Of a stretch of DNA of 64,000 nt, positions 1-64,000 are shown piece by piece. Made by a program: the position numbers and the translations under genes. Each line of letters begins with the position of its first letter. Position 1 is the stretch's first letter. This DNA comes from Tetradesmus obliquus (lineage: Eukaryota > Chlorophyta > Chlorophyceae > Sphaeropleales > Scenedesmaceae): NCBI GenBank assembly GCA_030272155.1, contig CP126207.1, positions 434,001 to 498,000 of the forward strand. Direction: 5' to 3'. A model generated the notes under the pieces. That model had not been told where the DNA came from, did not search any database, and saw nothing but the letters and a program-made list of their open reading frames with translations.

Positions 1-598
1 AGGACAGCTTGCAGGACAGCTGGCCGGACAGCTGGCTGGGCAAGCTGGCAGGGCAGCTCGCAGACATTGTTGAGGCGGGTGCAGCGCAGCGAGGAGAGGC
101 GCGGCAGCATCAGCAGTGCGAACGCGATGTGGCGTCACAAGATACAGTGGTGGGCTGGGGTTTGGTAGATACAGCTTGCAGGACGCAAGCCTTGCCCAGC
201 ACGGGAGGGCGAGGCCGCTCACACGGACAGCGGTAGCTGGCAGCAAGCTGTAGTGCCCGCGCTTGGCTACTGCTAAGGCTTGCAAAGTAAATAACTTAAC
301 AGGGCTGCTTGCAGGACATTGGCCCAGCACAGCAGGGGTAGCCGCGCACACAGGCAGCTGGCAGCAATCTGCAACTCCTGCAAGTTTAATAGCAGCATGG
401 CACATGCAGGAAGAAGTACAGGCAGCATGCAGAGGTGAGCGGCCTTCCAGGAAACTTGCAGTAAACTTGCTGGAAGTTGTGTTTTGTCTCTTTCGCGGCT
501 GCTGCTAGCAGTAGCAGCTGCAGGGCAACGGCCGCTGTACGTTGCGCCTGGCTTTCCCTCACACTGCTGCTGCTGCTGCTGCTGCTTTTCACATGCAG
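1..598. other. Region upstream of the bL19 exons; no exon resolved
   Basis: Presumably intron and 5' part of the bL19 gene. Short repeated phrases such as 'caggacagctggc' occur at 1-60 and again near 300-360. A run of seven CTG units lies at about 564-586, just upstream of the first recognised acceptor (CAG ending at 598). The N-terminal bL19 residues and an organelle targeting peptide should be encoded here or before the window, but I could not identify a convincing exon. Confidence 0.4.
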
Positions 599-1546
599 CG
601 CCTGGAGGGTGTTGTCATTGCGCAGTCAGGCAGCGGCAGCAACATCACCATCACAGTGCGCCGCGTGTTCCAGGTGAGCCCCGGGCTGCACATCGTTACT
701 GTGTTATTTTGCACAGCGTTACTGTTTTTCTGAAGTAGAGTGACTCGGCATGCGTCGTTGCTGGAGGTAATTGATGACAAGTGGCGGCACTGCTGTCACA
801 TTGTGCTGTGTGTTCCGCAGTGCCACAGGGATGTCCTTCACTGTGATACAGTACCATGCCAGCAAGACAGGCGCTGTGGCAACACTCAAACAATTCAGCC
901 AGCTGACTGTTGTCCTGTTTGACGTGTGTAGCACAAGCCTGCACAATGATGCTTCAGCAGCGTTCGCGCGTCCTTGACAGCATGCGTCCATCATTATCAT
1001 GGTACGGAGCAAGTCACATCTGAGACACCATGTGTTACTTTGTCTGTTTTAACGCAGGGTGTGGGTGTGGAGATGAACTTCTTCCTGAACAGTCCAGTGC
1101 TGGGTGGGCTGGAGGTGCTGCGCCGCGCGAAGGTGGGCAGAATTGAATTGCAGAAATGACACCTGTTTGAATAGAAAGTGACGCTGAGCATTGCAGTTTG
1201 AACAGCCCAGTGCTGGGTGGCCTGGAGGTGCTGCGCCGCGCAAAGGTGGGCAGATCTAATAAACGGAAATGACACATTTTGAATCAGAAGTGACAGCTGA
1301 GCATGGGTGTTCTAAACAGCCCAGTGCCCGGCGGGCTGGAGGTGCTGCGCCGTGCAAAGGTGGACAGATTTGAATGCAGTAATAAAATGATAAATGTGAC
1401 AGCTGAGCATCACGATGGAAATAGCCCTGTGCTGGGTGGGCTGGAGGTGCTACGCGCGAAGGCGGGCATAATAATGCGGAAACAACACACGCGACAAGTT
1501 CACGTTTTGCCATACCAACCTTTTTTGTTGCTGCTGCTGCTGCTGC

Positions 1547-1577
<31 letters not shown>

Positions 1578-14670: not shown

Positions 14671-17600
14671 CTATGGTGACTGCATCTGCTGCAGCAGCGG
14701 CTCCAGCAGTCCCGGCAGCGCGTGCAGGTATGTAACAGCCTGCTGCACGTCACGCGGCCTGCTGTGCTGCCCCAGCAAGCCCCTTGCTCCAGCCAACAGG
14801 CCCAGCCCTGGCCCCTCCAGGCTAACTGATGTGTCATTTAACAGCACCAGCACGTTATTTCCAGGATTCAAATCCAGGTCGGCGACAGACGGCCGATCCG
14901 ACCCGCGTCGCCGCCCTTGCTGCTGCTGCTGTGGGCTGGGTTTGCTGGGATCGCTAGGTGCTGCTGCTGCTGCTGCTGCAGGCGCTGCAAGCAGCAGCGA
15001 AGGTGCCAGTTGTATTGCAGACACACAGCTGTGGCAGCACTGTAGCGTCTTTGCAGCAACCCCCGGATGCAGCAGCAGCTGGCTGTCGAGCTTGGCACGT
15101 AGTAAGCCTCTGCTGCTGCTGTGCGCAAGCCAGCGCGACAAGCATGTCATAAATGACACCTGCGGCAGCAGCACCACGACTGCGCCTGCTGCTGCTGCTG
15201 CTCCCCTGCTGCTGCCAGCAGTCATAGATCCATCTCGCCCCATACCTCCTATCCCAGCAGCAGCAGCAGCAGCAGCAGCTGATCCGCTGGCTTTAGTTCC
15301 AGCTGCTGCTGCTGCTGCCGCACTGCTGCTGCTGCCAGGCGCGCCCTGCTGCTGCTGCTGCTGCCGCTGCGCCTCAATCCGCTGGCGCTGGCGATCATGT
15401 GCTTGCCGAGCATGGAAAGCATACGCTGCTGCTGCCATGTGTACTGAGTCCCCGCCTCGCCACGGGAAGGTCAACATGTGCCCCAGTTGCGTTACTAACA
15501 AGTGGCCTAACGCCAGCGGCCGCAGCGACAGCAGCTGCGGCTCAACTATGACCCCTTCAGCCCTCGCTGCTGCTGCTGCTGCCGCTGCCTGCATGTCTGC
15601 ATCCGCTGCTGCTGCCGGATCCTGCAGCAGCAGCCGCCCGCCGCCGCCGGCAGCAGCAGCGGCAGCAGCAGCAGCGCGCTCCCACGGCCCCCCTACATCA
15701 ATGTCTCCCAACAACAGCCCCTCTGCTATTGACCCCTCTGCTGCTGCTGGTGTGGTGCCTCGGGAGGATCCTGCAGATCCATCCATCACCGTTGCTGCTG
15801 CTGCTGCTGCTGCTGCTGGATCGGCCCCAGCTTGCTGCTGCTGCTGCTGGAGCACGTACTCCTCGCCTGCTGTTGCAGCGCTGCCAATCACAGTTTGCAG
15901 GACAAGGCTTGACAGTGTAGCATAGAAGCTGAAGTGGCCGCCTGCAGAGGATGCCAGCAGCTGCCGCTGTAGTGCACTGCTGCTGCTGTTCGAGCGCACC
16001 ACTGGCACTGCTGCTGCTGCTGCTGCTGCTGAGCTCGAAGGGCCAGTGGTTCCTGTGCTGAGACTCTGCTGCGCGTCTGATGCTGCTGCAGCACCAGCTG
16101 CTGCACTGATATCAATTGAACCGGCTTGCCCCTGCTGCTGCTGGCTGCTGCTGCTCTTACTTGCTGCTGCTGCTGCTGCTGCTGATGCGGCCCGCGCAGC
16201 CGCCGCTGACGGCTGCAGCCGCGCTGGCAGTCCCAGCATGTGCGTTATTTCCGCATCTAACGATGACAGCACCAGGTGCCACGTGTTGAGCCGCAGCTGC
16301 TGCAGCAGCAGCCCGTGGATGGCGGCTGGGCCTGTGTAAACGGCCGGCGGCTCTGCAAAGTAACAGAAATGTAACACAACAGTGACATGTATCAGTGACA
16401 TAAACTTTACAAGCAGCGAGATGCAGCAGCAGCCCATGGATGGCGGTTGGGCCTGTGTACACTGCCGGCGGGTTTGCAAAGTAACATAAAATAATAAAAA
16501 CACAAGTAGTGACAAAATTGTAACAGCAAAGTGACAAGCAGCGAGATGCAGCAGCAGCCCATGGATGGCGGTTGGGCCTGTGTACACTGCCGGTGGGTTT
16601 GCAAAGTGACACTCGCAGCATGCCACTGGGGTCCTTTTAGATGTAAGCAGCCACAAAACCCAGACCTGTCTCACCTTCCGCGCCCTTTCTGATCGCACTT
16701 GGTGCGCCCGGCTCTTTGACTGCAGGCACCTGCACCCGCAGCATGCCACCACGGTCCTTGCTTAAAACCTAGGGAAGCGTGAAAAACCCCCAAACCATCC
16801 ACACCCGTCTCACCTTCCACGCCTTTTCTGGTCACACTCGGCGCCCCCGGCCTCCTTACAGCAGACAAGGCTGCACCCGCAGCATGCCACTTGGGCCCTT
16901 CAACACCTTGACAGCGTGATAGAAAACCACAAAACCCTCCACACCCCTCACCTTCTGCGCCCTTTCTGGTTACGGTAGGTGTGCACGGCTTCTTCACAGC
17001 AGACAAGGCTGCACCCGCAGCATGCCATCCGCACACCAAGTGCAGCAACCAGCCCTGAAACCTGATACCATCAACCACGCTCACCTTCTGCGCCCTTCCT
17101 GGTGACACTCGGTGCCCCCGGCTCTTTCACTGCAGGCACCTGCACCCGCAGCATGCCACCACGGTCCTTCAACTCCCAAAGGCAGCGTGATAAAAAAACC
17201 CAAAACCCTCCACACCCCCCGCCTTCCGCGCCCTTTCTGGTCACACTCGGCGCCCCCGACTCTTTCACAGTAGGCACCTGCACCCGCAGCATGCCACCAC
17301 GCTCGTTCCTTGGAACTAGGCAGCGTGATAAGACCCCCCAGAAACCCTGCATGCCCCTCACCCCTCACCTGCACCCGCAGCATGCCACTGGGGCCCTTCA
17401 TCACCTTGACAGCGTTCTAAATAATCCTCAAAACCCTCCACACCCCTCACCTTCTCCGCCCTTTTCGGTTACAGTAGGTGCCCGTGGCTCCTTCACAGCA
17501 GGCACCTGCACCCGCAGCATGCCACTGGGGTCCTTCCTTGGAACCTAGCCAGAGTGAGAAAAAAAACCCCAAAACCCTCCACTACCCTCACCTTCCGCGC

Positions 17601-20600
17601 CCTTCCTGGTGACACTCGGCGCGCCCGGCTCTTTCACAGCTGGCACCTGCCCCCGCAGCATGCCACTGGGGTCCTTCAACACCTAAAGGCAGCGTGATAA
17701 AACCACCACAAAACCCTCCACACCCCTCACCTTCTGCGCCCTTTCTGGTTACGATAGGTGCCCCCGGCTCCTTCACAGCAGGCACCTGCACCCGCAGCAT
17801 GCCACTGGGGCCCTTCATCACCTTGACAGCGTTCTAAATAATCCTCAAAACCCTCCACACCCCTCACCTTCTCCGTCCTTTTCGGTTACAGTAGGTGCCC
17901 GTGGCTCCTTCACAGCAGGCACCTGCACCCGCAGCATGCCACTGGGGTCCTTCCTTGGAACCTAGCCAGAGTGAGAAAAAATCCCCCAAAACCCTCCACT
18001 CCCCTCACCTTCCGCGCCCTTCCTGGTGACACTCGGTGCCCCCGGCTCTTTCACAGCAGGCACCTGCCCCCGCAGCATGCCACTGGGGTCCTTCAACACA
18101 TGCACAATGTTGTAAGCAGCCCCAAAACCCAGCACCCCTCACCTGCACCCGCGCATGCCACCCGCACTCCAAGTGCAACAACCACGCCTGAAACCCTATA
18201 CCCTGAACCACGCTCACCTTCCGCGCCCTTTTTGGTCACACTCGGCGCCCCCGGCTCTTTTATTGCAGGCACCTGCACCCGCAGCATGCCACTGGGGCCT
18301 TTCAACACCTTGACAGCGTGATAAAAAACCACAAGACCCTCCACACCCCTCACCTTCCGCACCCTTTCTGGTTACAGTAGGTGCCCCCGGTTCTTTCACT
18401 GCAGGCACCTGCACCCGCAGCATGCCACTGGGGTCCTTCATAATGTACACAGTAGCTACACTGCCGCGCCCCACTGCTGCTGCTGCTGCCGCCGGCGGCT
18501 CACTGCTGCTGCTGCTGCTGCTGCTGGTCAAACGGAGGTTGACCGAGTAGGCAAAGGCACTGTCTGGCGGCTCGGTTTGAACCTTCCAGAACCGCTGCAG
18601 CTGCGCAACTTGCTCATAAAAGGCATCCTCTTTGCTGCCCAAAGCAGAGAGTGCTGCTGCTCCTTCGGAGAGCGCTGCTGCTGCTGCCGCTGCTGCTGTC
18701 GCGCGCCGCTGGTACCTGCAGCAGCAGCACCCGGCCACACCACACGCGGCTAGTTGACATCATGAGAGGCGTCAGAGACCGCGGCTGCTGCTACGTAAAA
18801 CAGCGCCACCGCCTCTGCTGCTGCTGCTGCCGGCCAATTGCACACAAGCCAACGATAGCTGTTAGCAAATCGCACCTGCTGTTTGAGGCTGCCGCATTTT
18901 TCCGTACTACAAGCAGCTGCATGTGACTAAAGACTCTTTATATCGGATATCACAGCATGTGATGATAACTAGTACCGTACTGTTTGCTGAAGACGCACCT
19001 GCTGTTTGAGGCTGCCGCAATGTCTAGCAGCAGCTGCGGCCATTTCGGCTTTCAACACAAACCATGTCTTTTAATGGCCCACCTTCTTCTGCACTAGAAG
19101 CAGCTGCTTTTCATTCATTCTATCTTATACTTGTGCGTGTGCTGCCGCTGCACCTGCTGTTTGCGGCTGCTGCAATGTCCAGCAGCAGCTGCGGCCCTTT
19201 CGGCTTCCGACACAAACCATGTCTCCAATGACCAATCTTCTTCCACAATACAAGCAGCTGCAGTTCATTCATTGTACCTCATACTTGTGCGTGTGCGTGT
19301 TTTGTTTCCAATGCTGCAGCCGCACCTGCTGTTCGCGGCTGCTGCAATGTCCAGCAGCAGTTGCGGCCCTTTCGGCTTCTCCACTTTGCCGACAGTCAGG
19401 TAGCGCCCCTCCTGCAGCACCGCCAGCGTGGCCTGCAGCCATTCCAGCTCGCCCTGCAGTTTAGCATAACGATTCAAAGGCCAGGTTTTAGCAGTAAATA
19501 ACACAATTCAACATGGTTTAGCACCTGCGGTGGAGATTGGGGTTCTCCACTTTGCCAACAGTCAGGTAGCGCCCCTCCTGCAGCACTGCCAGCGTGGCCT
19601 GCAGCTCACCCTGCGGTTTTGCAGTGTGGTTTAGTGTGGCACAGGGTTCAGGGTTGAGCATGGTACAACCACAATTAACAGGTTTTAGCAATGAAATATC
19701 ATTGGGTGCCTCCACGTTCCCAACAGTCAGGTAGCGCCCCTCCTGCAGCACGCTGCAACTGACAAACCTGAAAATAACAAAAAACACTTCAAAACGCCGG
19801 CCTCAGCTGCAGCCCACCTTTGCGGCTGCAAAGGATTTCATGACTTCCTCCGGCCTGGGGGCAGCCTCCTCTGCTGCCTTGGCTGCTGCTGCTGCTGCCG
19901 CATCTGCTGCTGCCGCTGCATCCGGTAGGCCGTCCGGCCCTGCTGCTGCTAGCGTTGCAAGGTCCACAGTGGTCTGTGCTGACTGCGGCAGCAGTAGCAG
20001 CAGCAGTAGCAGCAGCAGCAAGTAGCAGCAGCAGCAGTAAAGCGGCTGGGTGGTTTAGTTATCAGGTGAGCATTACTGGACTTGCTGCTGCTAGCGTTGC
20101 GAGGTCCACAGTGGTCTGTGCTGACTGCGGCAGCAGAAGAGCAGCAGCAGCAGCACAAGCGGCTTTGGTGTCGTATTTTGCAACCCTCTACTTATAAGTG
20201 CTGCTGCTGCTGGCGTGGCGAGGTCCACAGTGGTATGTGCTGACTGCGGCAGCAGAGCAGCAAAAGCACCGCAAGCGGCTTGTGTGCCTCAGTTCCCAGT
20301 AGCTAAGGCTACCAGTATCCTGCCGCTGCCTGCAACTGGTGGTGAAATCTTTGCTGTGTGACACTGCTGCACACTGCTGCTGCAGCTGCTGAATGCCTGT
20401 TCAAACACTTGCAGCACGCTCCCAGCTGCCTGGGGCGTGCCTGGTTAAAGGGTGTCTGTCAGCTGCCAGCTGCCTTAACGCTTGCAGGACACTATGGGTG
20501 TGACCGCCTGCTGCTGGTTGAAGGGGCCTGTGAGCTGCATGTGGGACCCTAAGTGCTTGCAGGACGCTGCAGCTGCACTGACAGCTTGCAGGACACTGTG

Positions 20601-22835: not shown

Positions 22836-24599
22836 GCTGAGGTGGGCAGGCTGCAAGCACGCATAGCAGAACTGCAGCTGCAGCTGCAGCAGGAGCGGCA
22901 CAGGTCGCTACTGCTGGAAACAGAGCTGCAGGTTTTGAAAGCAGCACATACCAGCAACAGCTTGCAGGAAACAGCAGAGCAGCAGCGCCAGGATGCGGCA
23001 GCAGCAGCAGCAGGGGCTGCTTGCTGCTTGCAGGACGATGGTGCAGTGCAGGCGCTGCAGCAGCAGCACGAGCAGCAGCACTCAGAGCTGCTGCAGCAGG
23101 TGCTGCTGCCGATGCAGCAGCTGCACCTAGAGCACCAGCGACACGTGCTGCTGCAGCAGCAGCAGCGGCTACAGCAGCAGAATGGTGACGCCATCATCTG
23201 CGGTAGCAGCAGCAGCAGCAGCGGCAGTGGCTTAAACACTCGCTGGAGCAGCAGCAACTGCCAGCAGCAGCAGCAGCAGCAGCAGCAGCCGCTCGTGCCT
23301 GCAGCAGCAGGCGACGGTCAAACGTCTGGTCAAACGTCCGGTCAAAGCGTTGACCACGTGGTCTTGACCAGGGCTGAGCACGAGCTGCTGCTGCTGAAAG
23401 TGCGGGCGATGGATGCAGTGAAAGAAGGCATCACAATTGCTGACTGCAGCAAGCCAGATATGCCGCTGATGTATGTCAACATGGGGTTCTGCCGCATAAC
23501 CGGCTACAGCCTGGCAGAGGTGCTGTACAAGAACTGCAGGTTCCTGCAGGTGGGTTTAGCGAGGCGCATGGCTGTGGTTTTAGGGTACTAGTTGCTGTTG
23601 TGGCGGTTTAGCGTGCTGTGTTTGCTTTGATGTATGTCAACATGGGCTTTTGCCGCATAACCGGCTACAGCCTTGCAGAGGTGCTGTACAAGAACTGCAG
23701 GTTCCTGCAGGTGGGTTTAGCGAGGCGCATGGCTGTGGTTTTAGGGTACTAGTTGCTGTTGTGGCGGTTTAGCGTGCTGTTTGTGCTTTGATGTATGTCA
23801 ACATGGGTTTGTGCTTCCACATAACCTGCTTCAGCCGTGCAGAGGTGCTATACCAGAACTGCAGGTTCCTGCAGGTGGGTTGTGGGTTGTAAGTAGAAAG
23901 GTTCAGGTTTTGCAGGGTTCTGCGCTGTGGGGTTGAGCAATGTGTGGGGTTCTGCCGCATCACTGGCACGGGCTGTGGATGCAGCGAAGGAAGATCACAA
24001 TGCTCGCTGCAGACTGCAGCAAGCCAGATATGCCGCTGATGTACGTTGATATGGGCTTCTGCCGCATAACTGGCTACAGCCTGGCGGAAGTGCTGTGCAA
24101 GAATCGCAGGTTCCTGCAGGTGGGTTTAGTGAGGCACATGGCTGTGGTTTTAGGGTTAAAGTTGCTGTTGGTGACGGTTTAGGGTTCTGTTGGTGCTGAT
24201 GTACGTCAACATGGGCCGCACAACTGGCTACAGCCTGGCGGAAGTGCTGTACAAGAACTGCAGGTTCCTGCAGGTGGGTTGTGGGTTGTAGGTGAAAAGC
24301 TTCAAATTGAGGTTGAGCAGTGTGTGGGGCTCTGCCGCATCACTGGCTACAGCCTGGGGGTGATACTTTACAAGAACTGCAGAACCCTGGGGGTGGGTGC
24401 AGGGTGAGAAGTGGGGGTTGGGTTAGGAGCAGCATTGCGCAGCGGTGTGGCGGCGCGGGTCAGCAGCGGCTGTGAACGCACAGCATGCTTGTCATCAACT
24501 GCTGCTGCTGCTGCTGTTGCTGCTGCAGGGCTCCTGCAGTGACCAGAAGATCTGCGTGCGTCTGCGAGCAGCCAGCAATGCACGGCATGCTTGTCACCA

Positions 24600-24643
<44 letters not shown>

Positions 24644-24717
24644 AGGGCTCCTGCAGTGACCAGGAGATCCGCGTGCGGCTGAGAGCAGCCATCAACGCGG
24701 GGCGTGCTTGTCACTAA

Positions 24718-24763: not shown

Positions 24764-26059
24764 CGCAGGGCTCCTGCAGCGACCAGGAGAGCCGCGTGCA
24801 GCTGCGGGCAGCCATCAACGCGGGGCGTGCGTGCGTGGCGCAGCTTATGAACTTTAGGTGAGGCTGGCAGCGCTTTTTGTTTTACGGGCTGCCTTCTTTG
24901 GGGTCCAGCTACTATTTAGCTGTATACAGCGCTTGTTATTGCGTTTCATCACAAAGCGCCGAGTGCCTCAGCACCATCACGGCAACCTGGGCTCATGCTG
25001 AACTTCGATTTGGCCTACACTTGCAGGAAGAACGGCGACCCCTTTGTCAACCTGCTTTCAATCACGCCGATCCATGACGCAAACGGCACCCTCACGCACT
25101 ACGTTGGCATTCAAAGCGACATCACGGAGCTGGTCAACCACCGGAAGGCCGAGCTGGCGGCGCGGCACGCGGCGCTGCAGGTACGTCATATGACATGTTA
25201 TGTAATTGATTACTAACACATGTCATGTTATAATGCTTTTGATGGGCGGGGCTGCTAGTTGTGTAGGCCCTATAGACTTTTTCCTTTATGGAACATTGGA
25301 GAGGGCATAAAATTTTGGGACTAAAAAGTGCCCTTTGGCGTAAACGCCAAAGTGTCAAAAATCACGGAGCTGGTCAACCACAGGAAGGCCGAGCTGGCGG
25401 CGCGGCACGCGGCGCTGCAGGTGCGTCATATGACATGTTATGTAACAGATTACTAACACATGTCGTGTTAGGATACTCTTGATGGACGGGGCTGATAGTT
25501 GTGTAGGCATCTGTTCAGACATCACGGAGCTGCTCAATCACTGCAAAGCGGAGCTGGTGGCACGGCATGTGGCGCTGCAGGTGTGTCATGTAAAGTCTTA
25601 CATTCAAATGTAGCAGGTGTTACAGTCTTGTGTGTTTTGTGCTGGGCAACTAGCTGTGTGGGCATCCAGACATCACGGAGCTGGTCAACCACCCGGAAGG
25701 CCGAGCTGGCGGCGCGGCACGCGGCGCTGCAGGTGCGTCATATGACATGTTATGTAAGATTACTAACACATGTCATGTTATAATGCTTTTGATAAGCGGG
25801 GCTGCTAGTTCTGTGGGCATTTTGTCAGACATCATGGAGCTGGTCAACCACCAGAAGGCCGAGCTGGCAGCGCGGCATGCAGCGCTGCATGTGCGTCATA
25901 TGACTTGTTATGTAACATGCTGCTACACCTATCACTGTAACACATATCGTGTTGATAATATTTTCAAAGGGCTAGGCTGCTAGCTGTGTAGGCAATTCAT
26001 CGGACATTACGGAGCTGGTCAACCACCGCAAAGCTGAGCTGACCAAACCCGCCACTTTG

Positions 26060-26098
<39 letters not shown>

Positions 26099-29000: not shown

Positions 29001-29416
29001 GGCTTCTGTGTGGCGATGCGCAGCGGCTGCAGCAGGTGGGCCTGTTACTTTGCATCTGTCATTCTGTTATTTTGTATGTTACAGTATATGTTACACGATG
29101 TGCGCGCAGCTGGTAGAGGGACTTTGGCCTGCTTCGATGCTCTTGGAAATGATGCAGCACAATTGCAGCAGCGATAAGTGTGCAATTATCCTGGACGCTC
29201 AATGTTGGGGCTGGCCTGCGGCTGCATCTGTTTGTCTGTCTTGTTTTGCTGTGTCACCAGTTGCTGTTTAACGTGCTGAACAACACCGTGAAGTTCACAA
29301 TTACATCTTTCTTGTGTTGCTGTGTAACCAGGTGCTGTTTAACGTGCTGAACAACACCGTGAAGTTCACCGAGTCGGGCGAGATTCCGCTCTCGTAATCA
29401 CTGTTGTGGCTCTTCC

Positions 29417-29449
<33 letters not shown>

Positions 29450-33422: not shown

Positions 33423-35472
33423 CTCACAGAGCGCGAGACCATCTCGCTGCTGTCACTGCCAGCTGGCCACAAGCCGCACCGAGCAGCAGCAGCAGCAGCA
33501 GCCAACAGCAGCGCAGCAGCAGCAGCAGCACTGACGCCGCAAGGCTCTGCCAACCTCGCTGCTGCTGTAGATGCCAGCACTCCGCTTGCTGCTGCTGCTG
33601 GTGCTGCAGCAGCGGGCGGGTTTGCAGGGCTGAGCAGCAGCCCTGCAGTGCACTCCCCGCTCACCCACTCGCTGCTGCTCCAGCAGCAGCAGCAGCAGCA
33701 GCAGTTTGGCGGGCCGTACAGCAGCGCAGCGGCAGCAGCAGCAGCAGCGCCTGGCGAGGCGGCTATGCCGCTGCTTCGGGGCAAGAGGGTTTTGCTGGTT
33801 GAACCCTGCCGGGTGGTGCGGAGTGTTTTAGCGCTGGCCCTTCGGAGCTGGGGCTGCTTTGTGTGTGCTGTGCCTTGTGAAGCAGCAGCAATGCAGCAGC
33901 TAGTGCTAAACGGCACACTGCATGTATCCCCGGGGTCCGCTGCTGCGATCTTAGCAGAAGCTGAGGCAGCAGCAGCCGGCAGCAGCAGCAGCAGCAGTGG
34001 TGTGCTGCAGCTGGAGCATGCGCCTGACATGGATGAGCGCACCTTCTGCTGCAGCGGGCCGTATGACTGCGTGCTGCTGGACATGCACCACACACGGTGA
34101 GCAGGGTTTAGTCCTAGTCTTCTTTTAAACCCTACACAGGGTGTTCAGTTTGACCGCAGTAGACCCTGTATGTTGTGCTGCAGCTGGAGCATGCGCCTGA
34201 CATGGATGAGCGCACCTTCTGCTGCAGCGGGCCGTATGACTGCTTACTGCTGGACATGCACCACACAAGGTGAGCAGGGTTTAGTCATGTCTATTTTGTT
34301 GAGCCCTATTGAGCGTTTTCAGTCTTGACTGCAGTAGACCCTTTAATGTTGTGCTGCAGCTGGAGCATGCGCCTGACATGGATGAGCGCACCTTCTGCTG
34401 CAGCGGGCCGTATGACTGTGTACTGCTGGACATGCACCACACAAGGTGGGTTAAATGGTTTTTTGCTCTTTATTGTGAATGATAAAAATAATAGTTCACA
34501 GGTTGTCATTCATACATTTTATTTGTAAGCAATCTGCTGCAGTGGGCTGTACAATTGCGTGCTGCTGGACATGCACCACACAAGGTGAGTGTGCCTCAGC
34601 CTCATACCTTCATTTCAGGTTTGCATCTTGTATCTTTTGGTTGCCTTGGAGGTCTTGATGTTTGAAAACCCTATATCTTTGTCTGTACCGGGCTGTGCGC
34701 CTTTGTGCTGCTGGGCATGCCTGACCTGGCACCAACCCCTGGAACTACACCTGAGTCCTGATGCAACCCTTTGCTTGCAGGCTGCTGAGTGCGCTGACGC
34801 TGTGTGAGGACCGCGAGGCAGCTCGCCGTGTATTTTTGGGTTATGCCCAGCACTTGAACCCCAAACCCCGACTGAACCCTGACACCACCTGTTTCAAAAC
34901 CTTTTATTTCACAGGCTGTTGAGTGCGCTCACGCTGTGTGAGGACCGCGAGGCAGCTCTCCTTGTGTTCATAGGCTGGCTGCGTCCCTCTTTGGTTCATC
35001 ATTTGACTGTGAAACTCTACTGAACCCTGATACAACCTGTTACAGACTGTTTCAAAACGTGTTATTTGTGCAGGCTGCTGAGTGCGCTGACGCTGTGTGA
35101 GGACCGGGAAGCAGCCCGCCTGGTATTCATGGGCTGGCTGCGACCCTCTTTGTGGTTCATCATTTTACTGCGAACCTCTGCTGAACCCTGATACAACCTG
35201 TGTACAACCTCTGTACAATCTGTGTAAAACCTGTTATTTTGCAGATTGCTGAGTGCGCTTACACTCTGTGAGGACCGCGAGGCAGCCCGCCTGGTCTTCA
35301 TGGGCTGGCCAGGTCAAGGGGAAGTGGAAGCAGCAGCGCCACAATTCGATATGGAATTCGAACTGCCTGTAACACCCCCAGTGGCAGCAGCAGCAGCAGG
35401 CACACAGCAGCAGCAGCAGCAGCAGCAGGGGGGTTTGGCGCTGCAGCTGCAGCGCTCGCCGTCCGGTGCAAA

Positions 35473-35508: not shown

Positions 35509-38500
35509 GCCGGCAGTGCTTCAACTGGAGGAGCACTGGCGGCCGGGCAGCCGGCAGCTGGGATATGTAACAGTTACGAGGCCGTTACGACAGGTGAGGC
35601 AGGGTGTGTGGGAGCAGTTTCCTTTTTTTCCTGAATATGCAGCAAGGTCCTTTTGAAGTGGGGTGCGGGATTGCTCAGCTTGCACAAGAACAAGCACACA
35701 CACTTGCTGTAGCAGCCCTTGGAGCGAGGCAAAAAACTGGCAGTGCTGCAGCTAGGGTAGAGCGCTGCCGGCCAGGCAGCCGGCGACCGTGGTACGTGAC
35801 TGTTACAAGGCCGTCACACAGGTGAGGCGGGGTGTGTGGGGGCTGCCGGCCAGGCAGCCGGCGACCGTGGTACGTGACTGTTACAAGGCCGTCACACAGG
35901 TGAGGCGGGGTGTGTGGGGGCTGCCGGCCAGGCAGCCGGCGACCGTGGTACGTGACTGTTACAAGGCCGTCACACAGGTGAGGCGGGGTGTGTGGGGGCT
36001 GCCGGCCAGGCAGCCGGCGACCGTGGTACGTGACTGTTACAAGGCCGTCACACAGGTGAGGCGGGGTGTGTGGGGGCTGCCGGCCAGGCAGCCGGCGACC
36101 GTGGTACGTGACTGTTACAAGGCCGTCACACAGGTGAGGCGGGGTGTGTGGGGGCTGCCGGCCAGGCAGCCGGCGACCGTGGTACGTGACTGTTACAAGG
36201 CCGTCACACAGGTGAGGCGGGGTGTGTGGGGGCTGCCGGCCAGGCAGCCGGCGACCGGGGTACGTGACTGTTACAAGGCCGTCACACAGGTGAGGCGGGG
36301 TGTGTGGGGGCTGCCGGCCAGGCAGCCGGCGACCGGGGTACATGACTGTTACAAGGCCGTCACACAGGTGAGGCGGGGTGTGTGGGGGCTGCCGGCCAGG
36401 CAGCCGGCGACCGTGGTACGTGACTGTTACAAGGCCGTCACACAGGTGAGGCGGGGTGTATGGGGGCTGCCGGCCAAGCAGCCGGCAGCCGGGGTACGTG
36501 ACTGTTACAAGGCCGTTACGACAGGCGACAGCCAATTAACCATGCTGGATCTGTAGTTGGCTGCCTGCTTAATGATAAACTAAACTGGACAACCGGCTTG
36601 TGAACTGCTGTGCAGGGCCGGCTGAAGCTTGCGCTTCAGGAGGTTTTGGTGATGAGCCTGTTTACTTAGCCATTGTATTTTGTATGACTGATATCTAGTT
36701 CATCTTTGGTGAATTGTGCCAAAGTTTACGGCTGCTGACTGCTGTCTGTCTGCAGGGCCGGCTGAAGCTTGCGCTGGAGGAGGTTTTAGTGATGAGCCTA
36801 GACCGCTGTACACCATTTACTGTGCGCCATACGTATGACTCCCTCGTTATCTTTATATAAGATTGCTGACTGCTGTGCAGGGCCGGCTGAAGCTTGCACA
36901 GCCATTCAACCATGCTGGATTTGTTATTGGCAGCCTGCATAAAGCAAACAAATGAAAAACAATGTGTGTGAACTGCTGTGCAGGGCCGGCTGAAGCTTGC
37001 GCTGGAGGAGGTTTTGGTGATGAGCCTGTTTACTTGGCATTTGTGTGATGTGTGACCACCTACGTACAATTGCTAAATTCTCTGCGCTGATTGTGCGTTT
37101 GCAGGGCCGGCTGAAGCTTGCGCTTGAGGAGGTTTTGGTGATGCGCCTAATTGCTTGGCCATTATATAGTATGTGACTTATCTCTAGTTCATCCGTGGTG
37201 AATTGTCACTCATTTTCATGGCTGCTGACTGCTGTGCTTTTGCAGGGCCGGTCGAAGCTTGCACTGGAGGAGGTGTTAGTGGAGGAGGTGTTAGTGAAGA
37301 GCCTGTTTACTTGGCAATGTTTGATGTATGACTGAGCTTTAGCAACTACCTAACTCACAATTGCTACAATTTTCTGCGCTGATTGTGTGTTTGTAGGGCC
37401 GGCTGAAGCTTGCGCTTGAGGAGGTGTTAGTGATGAGCCTAGACCCTGTCGCCCCTGACAGCCCCCACGGCAGCAGCAGCAGCATCGGCGGCGGCAGTGA
37501 CGGCTACTTGGCAGTGACAGCAGCAGCAGCAGCAGCAGCAGCAGCGGGGCTGGGGCATCAGTCAGATCTGCACATGGATCTCCAGCAGCAGCAGCAGCAG
37601 CAGGGAGCAGGAGAAGTGCTGGCCATACAGCAGCACCAGCAGCAGCAGCTACATGTAGAGCAGCAGCCGCACGAGCATCCAGACAGCAGGCTAGCGGCAG
37701 CAGCAGCAGGTGATATACAGCAGCAGCAGCGGGCTGCGTGTGTCATGTCACACCAGCTGTGTGACGATCTGTTACAAGCCAGCAGCCTATCAGGCTCGGA
37801 AACTGACCTGACAGCTGACTCAGCAGCAGCAGCAGCAGCGTCACCTCTGCAGCAGCAGCAGCAGCAGCAGTTGGCAGCAGCAGCAGCAGCAGTGAGTGCG
37901 CCGCTGCCATGCGTGACAGAGGAGGCTGCAAGCGAGCTGCTGTCTGTCAGCAGCATCAGCTCCACGCCCGAGGCACCAAGCCTCACTGCTGCTGCTGCTG
38001 CTGGCAGCAGCAGCAGCAACTTACAGCAGCAGCAGCAGCAGCATCATGTGCGGCGGCTGCCGCTGCTGAAACCTGCCACTGCAGTGAAGCAGCAGGGCTG
38101 CGGGTTGGATGCTGTTGCCGGCGGGAGCAAGACAGCTGCGCTGCGGGTACTGCTTGCCGAAGACAATGCCATAAACATGAAGGTAGGGTTTTGTGGCCTT
38201 TTCTGTTCGGGGTTTGTGTGCCTGGGGTTTAGTGGCGAGGGCTGCGGGCTGGATGCTGCTGCTGGTGGGAGCAAGACAGCTGCGCTGCGCTGGTGCTGCT
38301 GGCTGAGGACAACGCCATTAACATGAAGGTGGGGTTTTGCGGCCCTTTCTGTTTGCGGTTTTTGTGCCTGAGGTTTTGTGGCTTGGGTTGCGGGCTGGAT
38401 GCGTTTGCTGGCGACAGCAAGCACTGGCAGCAGTGGCGGATTGAATCACTGACAGATTGGTCGCTGACGATCACCGCTGCTGCTGCAGGTTGCAACCAAC

Positions 38501-51585: not shown

Positions 51586-52915
51586 CAGGCATCATTTCGG
51601 ACTCCTTTGCTGCCGGCTTTCCCGCCAACATAAGCAGCTCAGGCTGCCCTGGCGTGCCTGGCACCATCACCCAGAAAGAGGGGCCCTCAGGCAGTTCAGA
51701 TGAGGGCAGGGCAATGGCAGAGCTCATCTGCTTTGTAGCGTGAGTAATTGTCCAGATACTTGACCAGATTCGATGCGTGTTCAGGCAGCGGCGTGCCCTT
51801 TGTGGTTCTGTGGTGTTGTTTTCTGTGGTTTTGTGTTTTTAGGGTTGTGTGTTGAGTGGGACCATCATTCAGAGAGAGGGGCCGTCAAGCAGTTCAGATG
51901 AGGGCAGGGCTATGGCGGAACTAATCTGCTTTGTCGCGTGAGTGGTTGACGAGATTCTATTGTATAAAGAAATGCATGTTCAGGCAGCGGTGTGCTTATT
52001 GCGGTTCTGTGGTGCTGTTCTCTGTGGTTTTGTGTCTTATGGCAATGTCATTTGTTGGACCATCATCCAGAGAGAGGGGCCGTCAGGCAGCAGCGATGAG
52101 GGCAGGGCCATGGCGAAATTGATCTGCTTTATTGCGTGAGTGGGATTCTGCTTGTTTGGTTGCATCGTGCTTGTCCAAGATTGCTTGCATCTGGTGATGG
52201 TGCTGATGAGCTGTGCTGGCAATTCGGTCTTGGCTGCCCTGGCGTGCCCGGAACCATCATCCAGAAAGAGGGGCCGTCAGGCAGCAGCAATGACGGCAGG
52301 GCCATGGCGGAGTTAATCTGCTTTGTCGCATGAGTGGTTGACCAGAGACCTGACCAGATTCAATGCTTGTTCAGGCAGCGGTGTGCTTATTGTGGTTCTG
52401 TGGTTTTGTGTTTCATAGTAGTGTGTTTTGTCGGACCATCATTCAGCGGGAGGGGCAGTTAGGGAGCAGCGGTGAGGGCAGGGCAATGGCGGAGCTCATC
52501 TGCTTTGTTGCGTGAGTGGTTGGCGAAATGCTGCTTGGTAACGCGTGTTCAGGCAGCGGTGTGCTTATTGTGGCTCTGTGGTGTTGTGTTCTGTGGTTTT
52601 GTGTTTGATGGTTTCGTGTTTAGTGGGGACCATCATGGAAAGAGAGGGGCCGTCAGGCAGTTCAGGATGTCACACACCTGGGGCTGCAACGATATAGCAG
52701 GACCAACACTTCAACGCATGCTGCTGCCGCTGCCGCACAATTGCAGCCCTGGCTGTTGCTTGCACAAGACATCAATAGCTTCACTGGCTGCTGCTACTGC
52801 TGTGTACCTGCTGCTGCCGTCACAGGCCCCAGGCTCAGCGTATTTTCAGGACAGGCGTGGAGGAGGAGGCAGACATGGCGGCAGGCATCATGCAGCTGCA
52901 ACACCGATGGACTAA

Positions 52916-52968
<53 letters not shown>

Positions 52969-53186
52969 ATCTCTTGAATATCTCAGGCCCCAGGCGCAGC
53001 TAGTCTTTCGCACAGGCGTGGAGGGAAAGGCAGACATGGCAGCAGGCATCATGCAGCTGCACGGTGAAAGAACTGACCTGCTGCTGCTGCTGCTGCAGGA
53101 CTCAGGCGCAATTAGTGTTCCCAACAAGCGTGGAGTGAGAGGCAGACATGGCAGCAGGCATCATGCAGCTGCAACAATGGTATGAC

Positions 53187-53810: not shown

Positions 53811-55308
53811 AGGCGCAGTTCAGTCCCGGCATCCTGGTCCAGGCCATTGAGAAGGTCAAATCGCTGGGAGTGGCATACTTCACCGCAGGTGACTTCTTTT
53901 TTATTTTTACAGTATTTGAACATTAGATTAGGCATTTGTTATGTTGCTATATGCAGGCCATTGAAAGGTCAAGCCGCTGGGCGTGGCCTACTTCACCGCA
54001 GGTGACATATTCTCCATTTTGAAATTGGCAATACCTTATATGTTGAGAAATTATGGTTTACTGTGAACAAATGATTTATTTATGCTGTGTAATTGACGCA
54101 GGCGGCAATGTGCACATTCCACGTGGATGGCACAGCCATCGATTACACTTTCAGATGGCCACAATGACTGACTCGGCAACTGGAGAGGCACTTGGCAGCG
54201 TCCATGTGTGGCACTTGGCAGCCGCCATGCATTCTAGGTCATGTGACTGCACACATGTGTACACCCACCAATGATATGTGCTGTTTTTTTTTACGCAAAC
54301 AGGTGGCAACGAGGACGGCACAGCCATCGATTTTACTTCCAAATGGGCCACAGGCATTGACCCAGCAACTGGAGAGGCACTTGGCAGCGGCCACACATTT
54401 CAGGTCATTTTAAAGCACACAAGTGTACACCCACCAATGATATCTGCTGTTTTTTCTTGCTAACAGGTGGCAACGAGGACGGCACAGCCATCGATTTTCA
54501 ATCGCGATGGGCCACCATCACCGACCCGGCAACTGGAGAGGCACTTGGCAGCGGCCATGTCTGGGCACCCACTTTCAGTGGCAGCATGGCAGACATGTTT
54601 TTGGAAATCAAGATAAAGCGCCAGGACTACCCCCGATCTGTTGATATTTATCTGCAGGTGAGTGTTTGTGGTAATTTAAAATGATATGTGATTTTATATG
54701 TAAGATGTTGGCTATGTGCAGGTTGATAGGCAGCGGCCATGTGTGGACGCCCACTCTTAGTGGAAGCATGGCAGATATGTTGGAGATACAGATAAAGCGT
54801 CAGGACTACCCGCGATCTGTGGATATTCACCTGCAGGTGAGCCTTTGTAATATTTAATAACATGTTACTATATATAACATGTTGGCTTTTTGCAGGTTAA
54901 CAGGCAGCGGCCATGTGTGGGCATCCACTTTCAGTGGCAGCATGGCAGATATGTTTTTGGAGATCAAGATAAAGCGCCAGGACTACCCGCGATCTGTTGA
55001 TATTTAAACTGCAGGTGAGTCTTTGTAGATATTAAAATTACACGTTATAAGATATGTAACATGTTGGCCATATGCAGGTTGATAGGCAGCGGCCATGTGT
55101 GGGCACCCACTTTCAGTGGCAGCATGGCAGACGTGTTTTTGGAGATCAAGATCAAGCGCCAGGACTACCCGCGATCTGTGGATATGTACCTGCAGGTGAG
55201 TCTTTGTAATGTTTACAATGTTTGAAATGACATGTTGTATTATCACGTGAGAGCTTGAATGAGTGAATAATGTGTTATGTAACGTAATGCCACATGCAGA
55301 GCTGTAGG

Positions 55309-55474: not shown

Positions 55475-58400
55475 ACTCCCTGCAGTGGGACCAGCCCTTC
55501 TTCCGCAACACGCTGGGCCTGTCCAAACCTCTGCCAGACCTAGACTTGTAGTGCCACCTGCTTTTTAACACATGATCATGCTGCTGCGGCTGCTGTTGCT
55601 GCCTGCTTAAACCTCAAAAACCCTCCGCGCAGTGGAACCAGCCCTTCTTCCGCAACACTTTGGGACTCGCCGGACCCCTCTCGGACGTGCATATCTACGT
55701 ATGCGACAAGCCTGTCACGAGCTGGCAGCAGCTTGATCCTTTTCTGCCGAGCCGTGACAAGATCTGCGACGTTTACTACGACACGCCGATCGGCTACGAG
55801 CCCTTCTGGCCGTCAGACCTGGTGGACCACAATGTGAGTTCCGTCAAGGTTTCAGATATACCCCTTTGTCCCCATCTCATTAGGCGGCACCCAAGACGCT
55901 GCTGGGCCGGTCAGCTTCTTCGTGACCCCAAGCAGCAGCCCTGGATACTATGTTGCGCAACAATGTACAATCATTGAACATGACAAAACTGCTGTTTCAA
56001 TCTGCTGCCACTGCCGCCGCCGCCGCCGCCGCTGCTGCTGCTCCTGCTGCTCCTGCTTTTATCGCAGGGCGAAGAGCCCCCGCCCGGAGCCATTTCATTG
56101 GGAGGTACTCAGGATGCAGCAGAGTCGGTCAGTTTCTTCGTGACCCCAAGCAACAGCCCTGGCAAATTCCTCAGCAAGTTCCTGTTCATTCAGCACGTTG
56201 ACACGTACCAGGGGCAGTGGGACGCGCCCGCAAACAGCAACCTTGATCTGAAGATCTTCTGGTGAGGCTGAAGCTGCTGCTTTATTGTTGATTTCTTATT
56301 TTTTCCAAGAAAGATGATGTTTGAAAGCCGCCAAGCAACACTACAACTGTGACTCTCAGCAAGTTCCTGTTCATTCAGCACGTGGACACGTACCAGGCCC
56401 AGTGGGACGCGCCCGCTAACAGCAACCTGGATCTGAAGATCTTCTGGTGAGATGTTGCTGCTTTGTTGTTGGTTGCTTTGCTGTCAAGAATAATGATGAT
56501 TGAAATTCGCCAAGCACCAATCCAAACGCAAAATTTAGCAAGTTGAGCACGTGGACACACCCAGCAAGTTGACACGTACCAGGGGCAGTGGGACGCGCCC
56601 GCCAACAGCAGCCTTGATCTGAAGATCTTCTGGTGAGACGCTGCTTCTTTATTGTTGGTTTCTTTGTTGTCAAGAACATCAATGATTGGAAGCCGCCAAG
56701 CAACACAACAAGTGCGACTTTCAGCAAGTTCCTGTTCATCCAGCACAAGGAAAATATCCATCATGTTGACACGTACCAGGGGCAGTGGGACGCGCCCGCA
56801 AACAGCAACCTGGATCTGAAAATTTTCTGGTGAGGATGCGGCAGCTGCTTCTATAATATCTTGGGGCCAGATTTGGGTGTGTCAGGCGTAAAACTACATT
56901 TTGTGTGAATCTGTAGTTTAACTGCAGTCTCAGCAAGTACCTGTTCATTCAGCATCTTGACACGTACCAGGGGCAGTGGGACGCGCCCGCAAACAGCAAC
57001 CTGGACTTGAAGATCTTCTGGTAAGGCTGAAGCTGCTGCTGCTGCTGCTGCTCGGAGTTTGGCTTGCAGGAATGACAGTTGGGGTGGCTAGAGCTCACAA
57101 CGGCTTTAAATTTATGTTCCAAGCCCAGAGCAGCGGCCTGGACGTCACCTGGTTTGAAAGACTAGCGATCTGCTGCTGCTGCTGCTGCTGCTGCCAGGTC
57201 TGGCAATGAGCGCATGACATCCTGGTACCCTCTGGCATCATTACTTACCGACAATAAGCTGGTAATGTACTGACTTTGCTGCTGCTGCTGCTGCCGCTGC
57301 TGCTGCCAGGTCTGGCGATGAGCGCAACAACATCCTCTTACCCCCCAGGCAGTGGGGCGGCCGCTACCTGCGCAACGGATCAACCACAGCAGCACACGGC
57401 AACACGCCAGGTGGGGCTGACAGGGCTTGCAATCAATGGCAAAGCTGGGGTTCAGGTGTTATGCTTTGGGGCTATGGGCCTTTTGTTGGGTCTTACTGAT
57501 CAGTTGGGTGCTTGCGTAAAGGACGCGTAACATGTCTCAGCTGGCATTGATATTATAAATTAAAGCGAGCAGTGAGGCGGCCGCTACCTGCGCAACGGCT
57601 CTACTACTGCAGCACACGGCAACACGCCAGGTGGAGTTCAGGTTTACCAACAACTTCATGGCTTTGAGAAGTCCAAAGATCATGTGTCTCAGCATTGTAG
57701 TTGGGTGCCTGTCACATTTGTTGCGTTTGTTTTTCATTGTGGAGCCTGACTTGAGCTTCTCCCACAACAGCGTCACAGCCACATGCACGTGTTATACATA
57801 TGCGCCGCTACACTGCTACGACATGTGCAGGTGCCATGTCGATCTGTGCCGTGGACTACCGCAACACGCCAGCTTTTGGCGTGTCGCCGGCAGTAGCGGA
57901 GGACTTTTCTGGTCAAGGCATCACGCTCATCTCCTTGCTCACACAACCAGACAACCGCATGCATGTGTTTTAACAATTATTTGCAACATGTGTTACTACT
58001 GTTGTTATAACACGCAGGTGCCATGTTGATCTGTGCCGTGGACTACCGCAACACACCAGCTTGTCACCGGCAGTAGCAGGAGACTTTTTGCGGCAAGGCG
58101 TCACACAACTTGACACAACCATGCAACCGCATGCATGTGCACTAACTTGTGTTATAACGTGTGTTACTACTGTTGTTATAACACACAGGTGCCATGTCGA
58201 TCTGTGCCGTGGACTACCGTAACACGCCAGCTTTCGGCGTGTCGCCGGCAGTAGCAGAAGACTTTTCTGGGAAAGGCGTCACACCCATCTACTTCTTGAC
58301 ACAATCATGCAACCGCATGCATGTGTTCAATCTTGTGTTATGTTAACGGTCCTTCTGTCCTCTCAGGCTATTGCCCAAGCTATTGATGATGCTGACGAGT

Positions 58401-62186: not shown

Positions 62187-62219
<33 letters not shown>

Positions 62220-62374: not shown

Positions 62375-62427
<53 letters not shown>

Positions 62428-63754: not shown

Positions 63755-63793
<39 letters not shown>

Positions 63794-64000
63794 AGGGCCC
63801 CCAGGGCTTTTGTGCTAACCAGCCAGACGGCACCGCCTGCACCCCAGCCCGGTCCCGGTTACAGCAATCAACAGCAGCAGCACCAAACCCAACAAACAGA
63901 GCAGCAGTGGCCACCCCCCCTTGGTGGTGGAGCACCAACTGCTCAACAGCAGCGTGGCAGTGCAGGGGCCAGGCGTGCACTGCAGTGCGGGTGCCGATAC
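48602..64000 (+). CDS. Secreted subtilase-superfamily (S53-like) serine peptidase, 3' end beyond window
   Basis: Fourteen exons keep phase (821 residues): 48602-48841, 49584-49678, 50111-50259, 51589-51739, 53264-53387, 53813-53888, 54467-54657, 55633-55833, 56068-56261, 57310-57410, 58886-59065, 61029-61100, 61563-61633 and 62430-63047; a fifteenth starts at 63796. A signal peptide opens it ([17 protein letters not shown]). Catalytic residues: Asp in [10 protein letters not shown] (GAC 51600-51602), Glu in [11 protein letters not shown] (GAG 51702-51704) where subtilisins have His, VDDI for the oxyanion-hole Asp, and Ser in [17 protein letters not shown] (TCT 61568-61570). Glu/Asp/Ser is the sedolisin (S53) triad. 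The domain order follows bacterial homologues: [43 protein letters not shown], then [11 protein letters not shown] Ser-Pro linker (about 645-760) interrupts the C-terminal part. The start is the first ATG before the signal peptide. Confidence 0.85.
48842..50110 (+). repeat. Introns 1-2 of the peptidase gene
   Basis: Intron 1 (48842-49583) holds CAG/AGC-rich low-complexity DNA and no clear exon copy. Intron 2 (49679-50110) holds a diverged copy of exon 2's interior ('cgccagcgcagccgtgcgtg') at about 49825-49870, a copy of exon 3's start ('ttttcaggtcgcggctgtgt') at about 50025-50060, and a CTG tract that ends as exon 3's acceptor. Confidence 0.65.
50260..51588 (+). repeat. Intron 3 array: exon 3 ends, retroposon-like DNA, exon 4 starts
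   Basis: Copies of the exon 3 end ([20 protein letters not shown], then donor) lie at about 50365-50438 and 50515-50634. After a CTG tract, (CTCAA)n and retroposon-like DNA (50905-51165), copies of the exon 4 start ([20 protein letters not shown]) lie at about 51169-51250, 51313-51380 and 51461-51545, each with acceptor. In the last of these the triad region reads ILDS rather than ISDS. Confidence 0.9.
50915..51165 (+). mobile_element. Possible retroposon 3' fragment with (CTCAA)n
   Basis: Five CTCAA units (50915-50940) are followed by a short acidic frame ending in a stop ([20 protein letters not shown]) and a tail with 'ggtaactggtaactgg'. The tail region resembles 45970-46075. It interrupts the series of exon copies in intron 3. 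Family not recognised. Confidence 0.35.
51740..53263 (+). repeat. Intron 4 array: exon 4 ends, then exon 5 starts
   Basis: Copies of the exon 4 end ([20 protein letters not shown], then gtgagt) lie at about 51858-51939, 52062-52136, 52240-52331, 52440-52511 and, truncated, 52630-52665. Copies of the exon 5 start ([18 protein letters not shown]) lie at about 52828-52905, 52985-53065 and 53100-53175, each after a CTG tract or 'ctcag' acceptor. Every exon 4 copy keeps the GATGAGGGC (Asp-Glu-Gly) triplet set or a one-base variant of it. Confidence 0.9.
53388..54466 (+). repeat. Introns 5-6 of the peptidase gene
   Basis: Intron 5 holds a copy of the exon 5 end ('taccccgcggag' then donor) at about 53584-53641 and a long CTG/CCG tract ending as exon 6's acceptor at 53812. 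Intron 6 holds a copy of the exon 6 end at about 53955-54000 (followed by donor gtgaca) and copies of the exon 7 start ([11 protein letters not shown]) at about 54103-54220 and 54302-54405. Confidence 0.85.
54658..55632 (+). repeat. Intron 7 array: three copies of the exon 7 end, CTG tracts, one exon 8 start
   Basis: Copies of the exon 7 end ([20 protein letters not shown], then 'ctgcag' donor) lie at about 54722-54836, 54898-55014 and 55082-55195. CTG tracts lie at 55312-55341, 55389-55436 and 55440-55470. A copy of exon 8's start ([11 protein letters not shown]) lies at 55486-55550 and ends in a stop. Confidence 0.9.
56262..57309 (+). repeat. Intron 9 array: four copies of the exon 9 end
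   Basis: Copies of the exon 9 end ([20 protein letters not shown], then donor after TTCTG) lie at about 56358-56451, 56562-56632, 56725-56831 and 56932-57021. A copy of exon 10's start ('ccaggtctggcaatgagcgc') lies at about 57196-57240. Confidence 0.9.
57411..58885 (+). repeat. Intron 10 array: exon 10 end and three exon 11 starts
   Basis: A copy of the exon 10 end ([17 protein letters not shown]) lies at about 57570-57632. Copies of the exon 11 start ([20 protein letters not shown]) with 'caggtgccatg' acceptors lie at about 57828-57925, 58017-58110 and 58187-58290. A retroposon-like tail follows at 58360-58545. Confidence 0.9.
58360..58545 (+). mobile_element. Retroposon-like 3' fragment with (TGTAA)n tail
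   Basis: A short acidic open frame ([20 protein letters not shown]) ends in TGA at about 58489, then about 30 bases later four tandem ATGTA units form a tail. A short ORF end plus simple pentamer tail is typical of LINE 3' ends in green algae. The element family is not recognised. Confidence 0.4.
59335..60833 (-). mobile_element. 5'-truncated LINE (non-LTR retrotransposon), antisense in intron
   Basis: The minus-strand reverse-transcriptase frame is open from about 60825 to 59467, with a short 3' region down to about 59335. The upstream part that would encode an endonuclease is missing. The 8-base word GTTTTGCT occurs at 59327-59334 and 60834-60841 and could be a target-site duplication, though a match this short may be chance. 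The element lies between copies of peptidase exons 11 and 12. Confidence 0.8.
59467..60825 (-). pseudogene. LINE reverse transcriptase, N-terminally truncated
   Basis: About 450 codons survive. The frame begins near [12 protein letters not shown], a typical RT motif A region (the catalytic acidic residue lies in 'KAYDS'). It contains [16 protein letters not shown] and the active-site YADDMVLM, then [11 protein letters not shown], a thumb-like region, and [16 protein letters not shown]. It ends with a Cys/His cluster, [12 protein letters not shown]. No endonuclease domain precedes it, so the copy is dead on arrival through 5' truncation. Intact motifs and open frame indicate recent insertion. 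Similarity of this type is typical of RTE/L1-like elements of green algae and plants. Confidence 0.85.
61101..62429 (+). repeat. Introns 12-13 of the peptidase gene
   Basis: Intron 12 (61101-61562) contains a small duplication ('cttgtacagcctaacaactgc' type) at about 61266-61325 and a CTG tract; its acceptor is TAG. Intron 13 holds a copy of the catalytic-Ser exon's end (LLQLLR-frame region 'catgctgctgcagttgctgc') at about 61731-61782, and two copies of the exon 14 start ([17 protein letters not shown]) at about 62106-62185 and 62271-62345, each preceded by CTG tracts. The true exon 14 also uses a TAG acceptor after a CTG tract. Confidence 0.85.
62515..62850 (+). repeat. Coding Ser-Pro repeat (SPSPGL)
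   Basis: About 18 repeats of 18 bases ('agccctagccctggctta' and variants) encode SPSPGL units inside peptidase exon 14. Ser-Pro repeats of this type are hydroxyproline-glycosylation sites in volvocine and other green-algal wall proteins. They sit between the YDMPYR and [10 protein letters not shown] parts of the peptidase C-terminal region. Confidence 0.9.
63048..63795 (+). repeat. Intron 14 array: three copies of the exon 14 end
   Basis: Copies of the exon 14 end ([19 protein letters not shown], then donor gtgag) lie at about 63163-63221, 63365-63423 and 63602-63660. A CTG tract at 63753-63795 ends as the acceptor of exon 15. Confidence 0.9.
63796..64000 (+). CDS. Exon 15 of the peptidase gene, incomplete
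   Basis: In phase 0 from exon 14 the reading begins [17 protein letters not shown], a short Cys motif. Another frame further on reads [14 protein letters not shown] then [17 protein letters not shown], which also looks protein-like. A small intron or a frameshift between them is possible. The gene continues past the window end. Confidence 0.5.

Follow-up and report, generated by a model that had tools for sequence, protein, structure and literature searches.

Tandem arrays of exon-edge copies at both ends of introns in the green alga Tetradesmus obliquus

Introners are found as many intronic copies that carry splice signals, and other described systems also bring repeats, exon copies, or serial splice sites to introns and their borders. 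In genes of fission yeast, for example, an exonic AGGT segment of 24 bases has been duplicated several times, with introns spanning four or two of the duplicates (PMC4974935), while Rogers and Bendich (2025; PMC11782384) describe direct repeats near intron borders, as single pairs of 4–30 bases common to both borders. In Vanilla, exons 4–16 of MSH1 lie inside intron 14 (PMC10487979), and recursive splicing, including that at exonic recursive sites, involves serial splice sites in one intron (PMC10156609). Here, we describe arrays in a 64,000-base stretch of the Tetradesmus obliquus genome (the window; contig CP126207.1, positions 434001–498000), where the edges of exons, together with their splice sites, are repeated in the adjoining introns, as in a gene for a LOV histidine kinase. 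This is a new form of gene change by tandem duplication, and it comes closest to tandem-duplication intron gain, border direct repeats, and recursive splicing. Among the literature matches listed, in a coverage that mostly leaves out subscription papers, none describes arrays of this kind.

The fission-yeast case is the nearest multi-copy precedent among those matches, as far as the matched part of that paper (PMC4974935) goes. Tandem-duplication intron gain, as presented there, resembles the present case in that the duplication of gene DNA is tolerated, the extra copy being spliced out. In that part of the paper, however, the intron is a new one, which arises either from an AGGT segment of an exon or from a single duplicated intron–exon piece, whereas here introns that already existed have grown at both ends, in many genes and by units of approximately 80–300 bases, with no enrichment of AG/GT. 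The border direct repeats (PMC11782384, in its matched part) also lie at exon–intron borders, but here there are arrays, and each border repeats itself. Recursive splicing, in the matched part of PMC10156609, shares the serial splice sites in one intron, although the sites here are copies of junctions rather than isolated ratchet points, and are known from DNA alone. The Vanilla case, as given in the matched part of PMC10487979, likewise places exon copies in an intron of the same gene, but as a single multi-exon copy, where here each junction has its own array of exon edges.

Intronic minisatellites are similar in forming local tandem arrays with copy turnover, but the unit here combines the edge of an exon with a splice site that is intact, and both flanks of one intron are involved. 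Introners, in turn, are dispersed over many genes, whereas a 621-base intron probe from the kinase gene, run against the whole genome, recovered exon copies at this locus only, local to one junction (one probe; 40 of 73 candidates scored). By this probe, the copies are not introners, and dispersal was limited to a short, separate element in the middle of the intron.

The genome searched comprises 17 contigs (104,662,953 bases), of which C17 includes the window (C17:434001–498000). The analysis is based on the DNA of one genome, gene models other than that of the kinase are predicted, and the copies within one array are non-independent observations.

In the kinase gene, the exon edges recur in the adjoining introns, and a search of the whole 21.0–33.5 kb region of the window with the spliced kinase protein (tblastn) recovered no copy on the wrong side. 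A curated search, confined to the introns, resolved 45 partial copies in six introns, 24 of them donor-side (the 3' end of an exon with its donor) and 21 acceptor-side (the 5' end of an exon with its acceptor), in donor/acceptor numbers of 5/2, 5/1, 2/4, 8/0, 0/8, and 4/6 per intron. The last of these introns (30336–32527) contains exactly four donor-side copies followed by six acceptor-side copies, as read in the initial annotation of the window, while no copies were found at the intron 24858–25026 or the exon 28970–29035. The outermost exons yield continuous Pfam PAS, HisKA, and HATPase_c domains, with PAS spanning the junction 23549/24769, HisKA the junction 26404/27598, and HATPase_c the junction 30335/32528, and the receiver part of the gene shows the same copy pattern. 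The gene finder threaded exon-edge copies as exons, which is a warning for gene annotation. Once the copies had been removed, it read the HisKA–HATPase part continuously, but lost the LOV exon and fused the neighboring genes.

Over the whole window, a BLAST of the sequence against itself returned 245 direct and five inverted pairs of at least 40 bases, and 253 of the 256 direct pairs of any length lie less than 2 kb apart, forming 46 clusters, while five dinucleotide shuffles of the window gave no match of at least 40 bases. The two-sided copies proposed in the initial annotation are thus real, and they stand head to tail, locally and with a shared period, as tandem arrays. The pipeline assigned 173 copies to 50 junction families, or approximately 123 extra copies, where more than 80 had been counted, using predicted junctions, some of them misplaced, from a purpose-built gene finder that was trained with masking and kinase seeds. 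The copies were also said to occur in five unrelated genes on both strands. They do lie on both strands, and are clear in the kinase gene, in a gene at 48–59 kb, and in one minus-strand gene.

The extent of the arrays was measured by the inverse procedure, in which the tandem copies are deleted and the shrinkage is recorded. The window collapsed from 64,000 to 34,816 bases (66 arrays), while 20 other 10-kb stretches, chosen on contigs C1–C7 at round coordinates, lost 16,222 of 200,000 bases (8%; 46 arrays), with seven of the 20 being free of arrays. The share of sequence in local direct repeats is 48% for the window and averages 8.8% over these stretches. The pattern that had been called genome-wide is present, in a thinner form, at sampled loci on other contigs (L006, L010, L015, L016, L020, L023, and L026). 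One of these (L006) is a protein kinase, confirmed by Pfam, that carries exon-edge copies, and two others are genes that we take to be Snu114-like (L010) and p300/CBP-like (L020).

In all 17 introns with at least two copies of both families (11 in the window and six at other loci, one on the minus strand), every donor-side copy precedes the acceptor-side copies. That this polarity rarely breaks had been recognized from the outset, and was taken as a sign that copying is seeded at the junctions. The order is, however, forced by any tandem duplication that straddles a junction, because duplication across a donor leaves only the first copy joined to the exon, all later ones falling in the intron, with the mirror image at acceptors, so that seeding is not needed to explain it. 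Where both ends have expanded, the acceptor copies must all come after the donor copies, and the distance from the last donor to the first acceptor corresponds to the ancestral intron. The innermost gap has a median of 217 bases (83–591) in these introns, the outermost one of 1148 bases (442–2192), and the predicted introns have a median of 257 bases after collapse. The innermost pair would thus represent the ancestral intron, of normal length as expected, with everything outside it having been added.

The duplicated unit includes the intron spacer as well as the exon edge. Spacers of adjacent copies were compared with 40 shuffles each, and homology exceeded all 40 in 120 of 165 adjacent pairs, including 15 of the 16 pairs with a core identity of at least 97%. 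This test replaced an insensitive version with free end gaps (29/152 pairs, with shuffled spacers scoring 0.725). Whole exon-plus-intron units were therefore duplicated, rather than exon edges alone, as had been supposed. The lengths of the unit and of its exon part differ between arrays, and adjacent cores diverge by approximately 11–13% on average. In the pairs with detectable spacer homology, a subset that favors similar spacers, the ratio of spacer to core divergence is 1.33–1.42, which is within the expected factor, being below the bound of approximately 1.5–2 derived here for copies that decay neutrally beside a source copy under constraint. A filter for whole-unit identity left seven near-complete pairs, only two of them without a third copy.

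The arrays are probably the product of the local tandem duplication of units of approximately 80–300 bases that straddle splice junctions, each spanning an exon edge and the adjoining intron, after which the array would grow and turn over, while purifying selection would act chiefly on the functional copies of the exons, the outermost ones. Such duplications may be tolerated because the first donor and the last acceptor still give the same mRNA, while duplications inside exons would be purged, and one reason for the arrays to last at junctions may be that the functional exon, being constrained, keeps providing a homologous partner. This would provide a route for the several-fold growth of introns with no change in the protein. 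It also offers natural introns with, for example, five donors and seven acceptors of similar strength, in which it becomes testable what drives the choice of the outermost pair, if this is indeed chosen, and what share junction-spanning duplication has in the evolution of intron length.

The copies decay mostly like non-coding DNA. Among the kinase copies, the differences at the three codon positions (0.124/0.094/0.237) are biased toward the third, as expected if the source stayed under protein selection, while the changes private to one copy are distributed more evenly (27/33/44), these counts resting on two junctions that are one base off. The initial annotation suggested that the copies could serve as mutually exclusive or skipped micro-exons, but none of the 23 copies of five kinase exons covers 90% of its exon, 13 of the 16 indels in the exon parts are not multiples of three, and in 40 of 44 cases a decoy site, if used, would lead into an in-frame stop. 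Alternative coding exons are thus a most improbable explanation, even though only one of the 45 copies has an in-frame stop inside its exon part and the private changes, as described below, are synonymous more often than expected.

Several results weigh against local duplication and selection as the whole explanation, beginning with the position of the arrays. Single-junction arrays number 43 of 66 in the window, compared with 19.3 under random placement (standard deviation 3.7), while the 20 other stretches have 32 of 42, compared with 14.8 (standard deviation 3.1; four of the 46 arrays, with a period above 400, left out). A refined test was restricted to exons and introns up to a length limit, and compared single-junction with intron-internal arrays after correction for geometry, exon-internal ones being set aside, its expectation using unit lengths and then intron-length limits in place of a version based on decayed homology lengths. 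With introns of up to 600 bases, single-junction arrays made up 40 of 46 in the window (65% expected, P = 7e-4; 14 arrays outside the limit), while the other stretches had 31 of 33 (63% expected, P = 6e-5; seven outside). With introns of up to 350 bases, the numbers were 38 of 41 in the window (78% expected, P = 0.013; 22 outside) and, in the other stretches, 26 of 28 (71% expected, P = 0.005; 12 outside). Units with at least two junctions were close to expectation in the window (seven, with 7.8 expected) and below it in the other stretches (one, with 4.5 expected). The concentration of copies at splice junctions that had been claimed for the window is thus borne out. Geometry and selection explain most of it, but an excess of approximately 3.6- to 9-fold in the odds remains, and the longer detectability of exon-bearing copies perhaps covers some 1.5-fold of this, by our own estimate, and not all. 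The remainder would reflect a bias toward junctions, an effect of persistence, or selection.

Spacer homology was not detectable in 45 of the 165 adjacent pairs, including five free of low complexity with cores at least 95% identical. The splice sites, multiplied intact as initially claimed, are also better preserved than expected. All 44 kinase decoys (the 45th copy has no junction) keep their GT or AG, compared with 88.8% of nearby exon dinucleotides (P = 0.005), after four junctions (24769, 26256, 26404, and 27598) had been placed by hand at the functional copy's own AG or GT, retention before this step being 39/44 and 38/44. Synonymous changes, finally, account for 40 of 103 private changes in the kinase copies (28% under neutrality) and 96 of 224 in a wider set (26% under neutrality), in which the functional copy was assigned by position, unreliably outside the window. 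The excess may in part represent unpolarized changes of the functional copy, but it becomes stronger (29/59) when the most divergent copy of each kinase array is dropped, which runs counter to this.

The residual excess of junction-spanning arrays and the shortage of intron-internal ones, which persist among arrays at least 85% identical, would be explained if copying were linked to the junctions, for example where breakage or template switching accompanies transcription or splicing. We consider this rather unlikely, given that the lengths of the unit and its exon part vary by array, that spacers are copied too, that the gene models are predicted, and that exon-bearing copies remain detectable longer. 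It is unlikely, too, that the exon-edge copies are functional relay sites, through which long introns are removed from the inside out by a spliceosome tuned to introns of approximately 200 bases, although this would explain both the intact decoys and the retention of junction-spanning over intron-internal duplications. In its stepwise form, this "Russian doll" splicing would remove the innermost pair, of normal length, and then the outer pairs in succession, the copies being working intermediates for a short-intron spliceosome. The innermost gap is indeed that of a normal intron, the outer pairs are in nested order in 17 of 17 introns, and the decoys match the functional sites in position weight matrix score (donors 6.34 vs. 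6.40, acceptors 6.17 vs. 6.22), besides being intact. The layout follows from geometry alone, however, the unequal donor and acceptor numbers in the six kinase introns mean that pairing cannot finish everywhere, and in the wider automatic set, with some junctions misplaced, splice dinucleotides are kept in 91 of 108 copies (84%) compared with 371 of 484 exonic controls (77%; P = 0.09), so that stepwise splicing is an improbable account.

A further possibility is recursive splicing on AG/GT, in which the exon joins the AG of the next copy and regenerates a donor, making the duplications silent. All five copy-bearing kinase donors read CAG/GT, and three of the five acceptor exons start with GT, but at the predicted junctions the exon-end AG is not more common at array donors (32/55) than at others (144/261), and the exon-start GT is found at 11/37 vs. 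50/234, neither being a requirement, which makes this mechanism very unlikely. Tandem repeats are error-prone in assembly, but an assembly artefact is scarcely credible here, given that adjacent cores differ by copy-specific substitutions and indels, at the divergence given above, and that the pattern recurs at many loci; no point was found in its favor.

The local tandem duplication of junction-straddling units thus remains the preferred reading, and the functional exons and arrays are listed in Table 1. The gene at 48–59 kb, which repeats the copy pattern of the kinase gene, has no Pfam match and no convincing match in the PDB.

Table 1. Functional exons and arrays of exon-edge copies, in window coordinates.
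Feature	Position	Strand	Remarks
LOV/PAS exon, functional copy	23031..23549	+	Start approximate; outermost donor after 23549; PAS runs into exon 24769
5 donor-side copies (exon 3' end, donor, intron part)	23628..24440	+	
2 acceptor-side copies of exon 24769–24857	24472..24710	+	
Functional exon	24769..24857	+	
Functional exon	25027..25180	+	
5 donor-side copies	25361..26050	+	Fifth without the junction itself
1 acceptor-side copy of exon 26256–26404	26040..26170	+	
Functional exon, HisKA	26256..26404	+	Pfam
2 donor-side copies	26483..26780	+	
4 acceptor-side copies of exon 27598–27760	26944..27527	+	
Functional exon	27598..27760	+	
8 donor-side copies	27796..28760	+	Period ~111
Functional 66-base exon	28970..29035	+	Copy-free
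8 acceptor-side copies of exon 30021–30335	29199..29959	+	
Functional exon, HATPase_c first part	30021..30335	+	Pfam
4 donor-side copies	30458..31260	+	
6 acceptor-side copies of exon 32528–32942	31370..32440	+	
Functional exon, HATPase_c second part	32528..32942	+	Pfam
3 donor-side copies of exon ending 34096	34175..34590	+	
3 acceptor-side copies of exon starting ~35245	34746..35125	+	
Donor-side array, 9.8 copies	35764..36525	+	Period 78, 98% matches; junction predicted, position uncertain
5 acceptor-side copies of exon starting 37397	36613..37281	+	
4 donor-side copies of exon ending 51739	51864..52512	+	Second plus-strand gene
Acceptor-side copies of exon 53265–53387	52815..53177	+	3 by tblastn, 2 by DNA probe
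3 copies, 3' part of exon ending 54657	54726..55195	+	Middle copy stops before donor
4 donor-side copies of exon ending ~56261	56331..57027	+	
3 acceptor-side copies of exon 58885–59064	57830..58292	+	
Donor-side array following exon 18409–18715, 11 copies	16670..18408	-	10 with GT; period ~138

Some arrays of the kinase gene are mosaic. In the LOV array (23628–24440), the exon parts of copies 3 and 4 agree, while their intron parts differ, and at 26944–27527 a cluster of changes (DFSRIE to DCPCIK) is common to two of the four copies of exon 27598, which suggests conversion or higher-order duplication. The array at 35764–36525 is the most uniform of the long arrays in the window, perhaps through recent expansion or conversion. 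In the middle of a kinase intron, approximately 110 bases (31240–31349) match at least 39 other places on 15 of the 17 contigs, at 72–97% identity. This is a short dispersed element, separate from the exon copies and with no Rfam match, and an Rfam scan of the whole window gave no match at gathering scores.

Local repeat coverage varies along C17, being 30% at 330–340 kb, 48% at 434–498 kb, 39% at 520–530 kb, and 79% at 640–650 kb, with none at 1.00 Mb. The segment of 330–650 kb (L029, L031, L032, and the window) is a regional hotspot of repeat arrays, based on four places sampled on this contig besides the window, and one possible cause is a region of low recombination. RWP-RK genes, which presumably point to a mating locus, were searched for in this context, and the seven matches in the genome include none on C17. 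Finally, CTG/CAG triplet tracts are very abundant on both strands throughout the window, and in some arrays they form the tract that precedes the acceptor.

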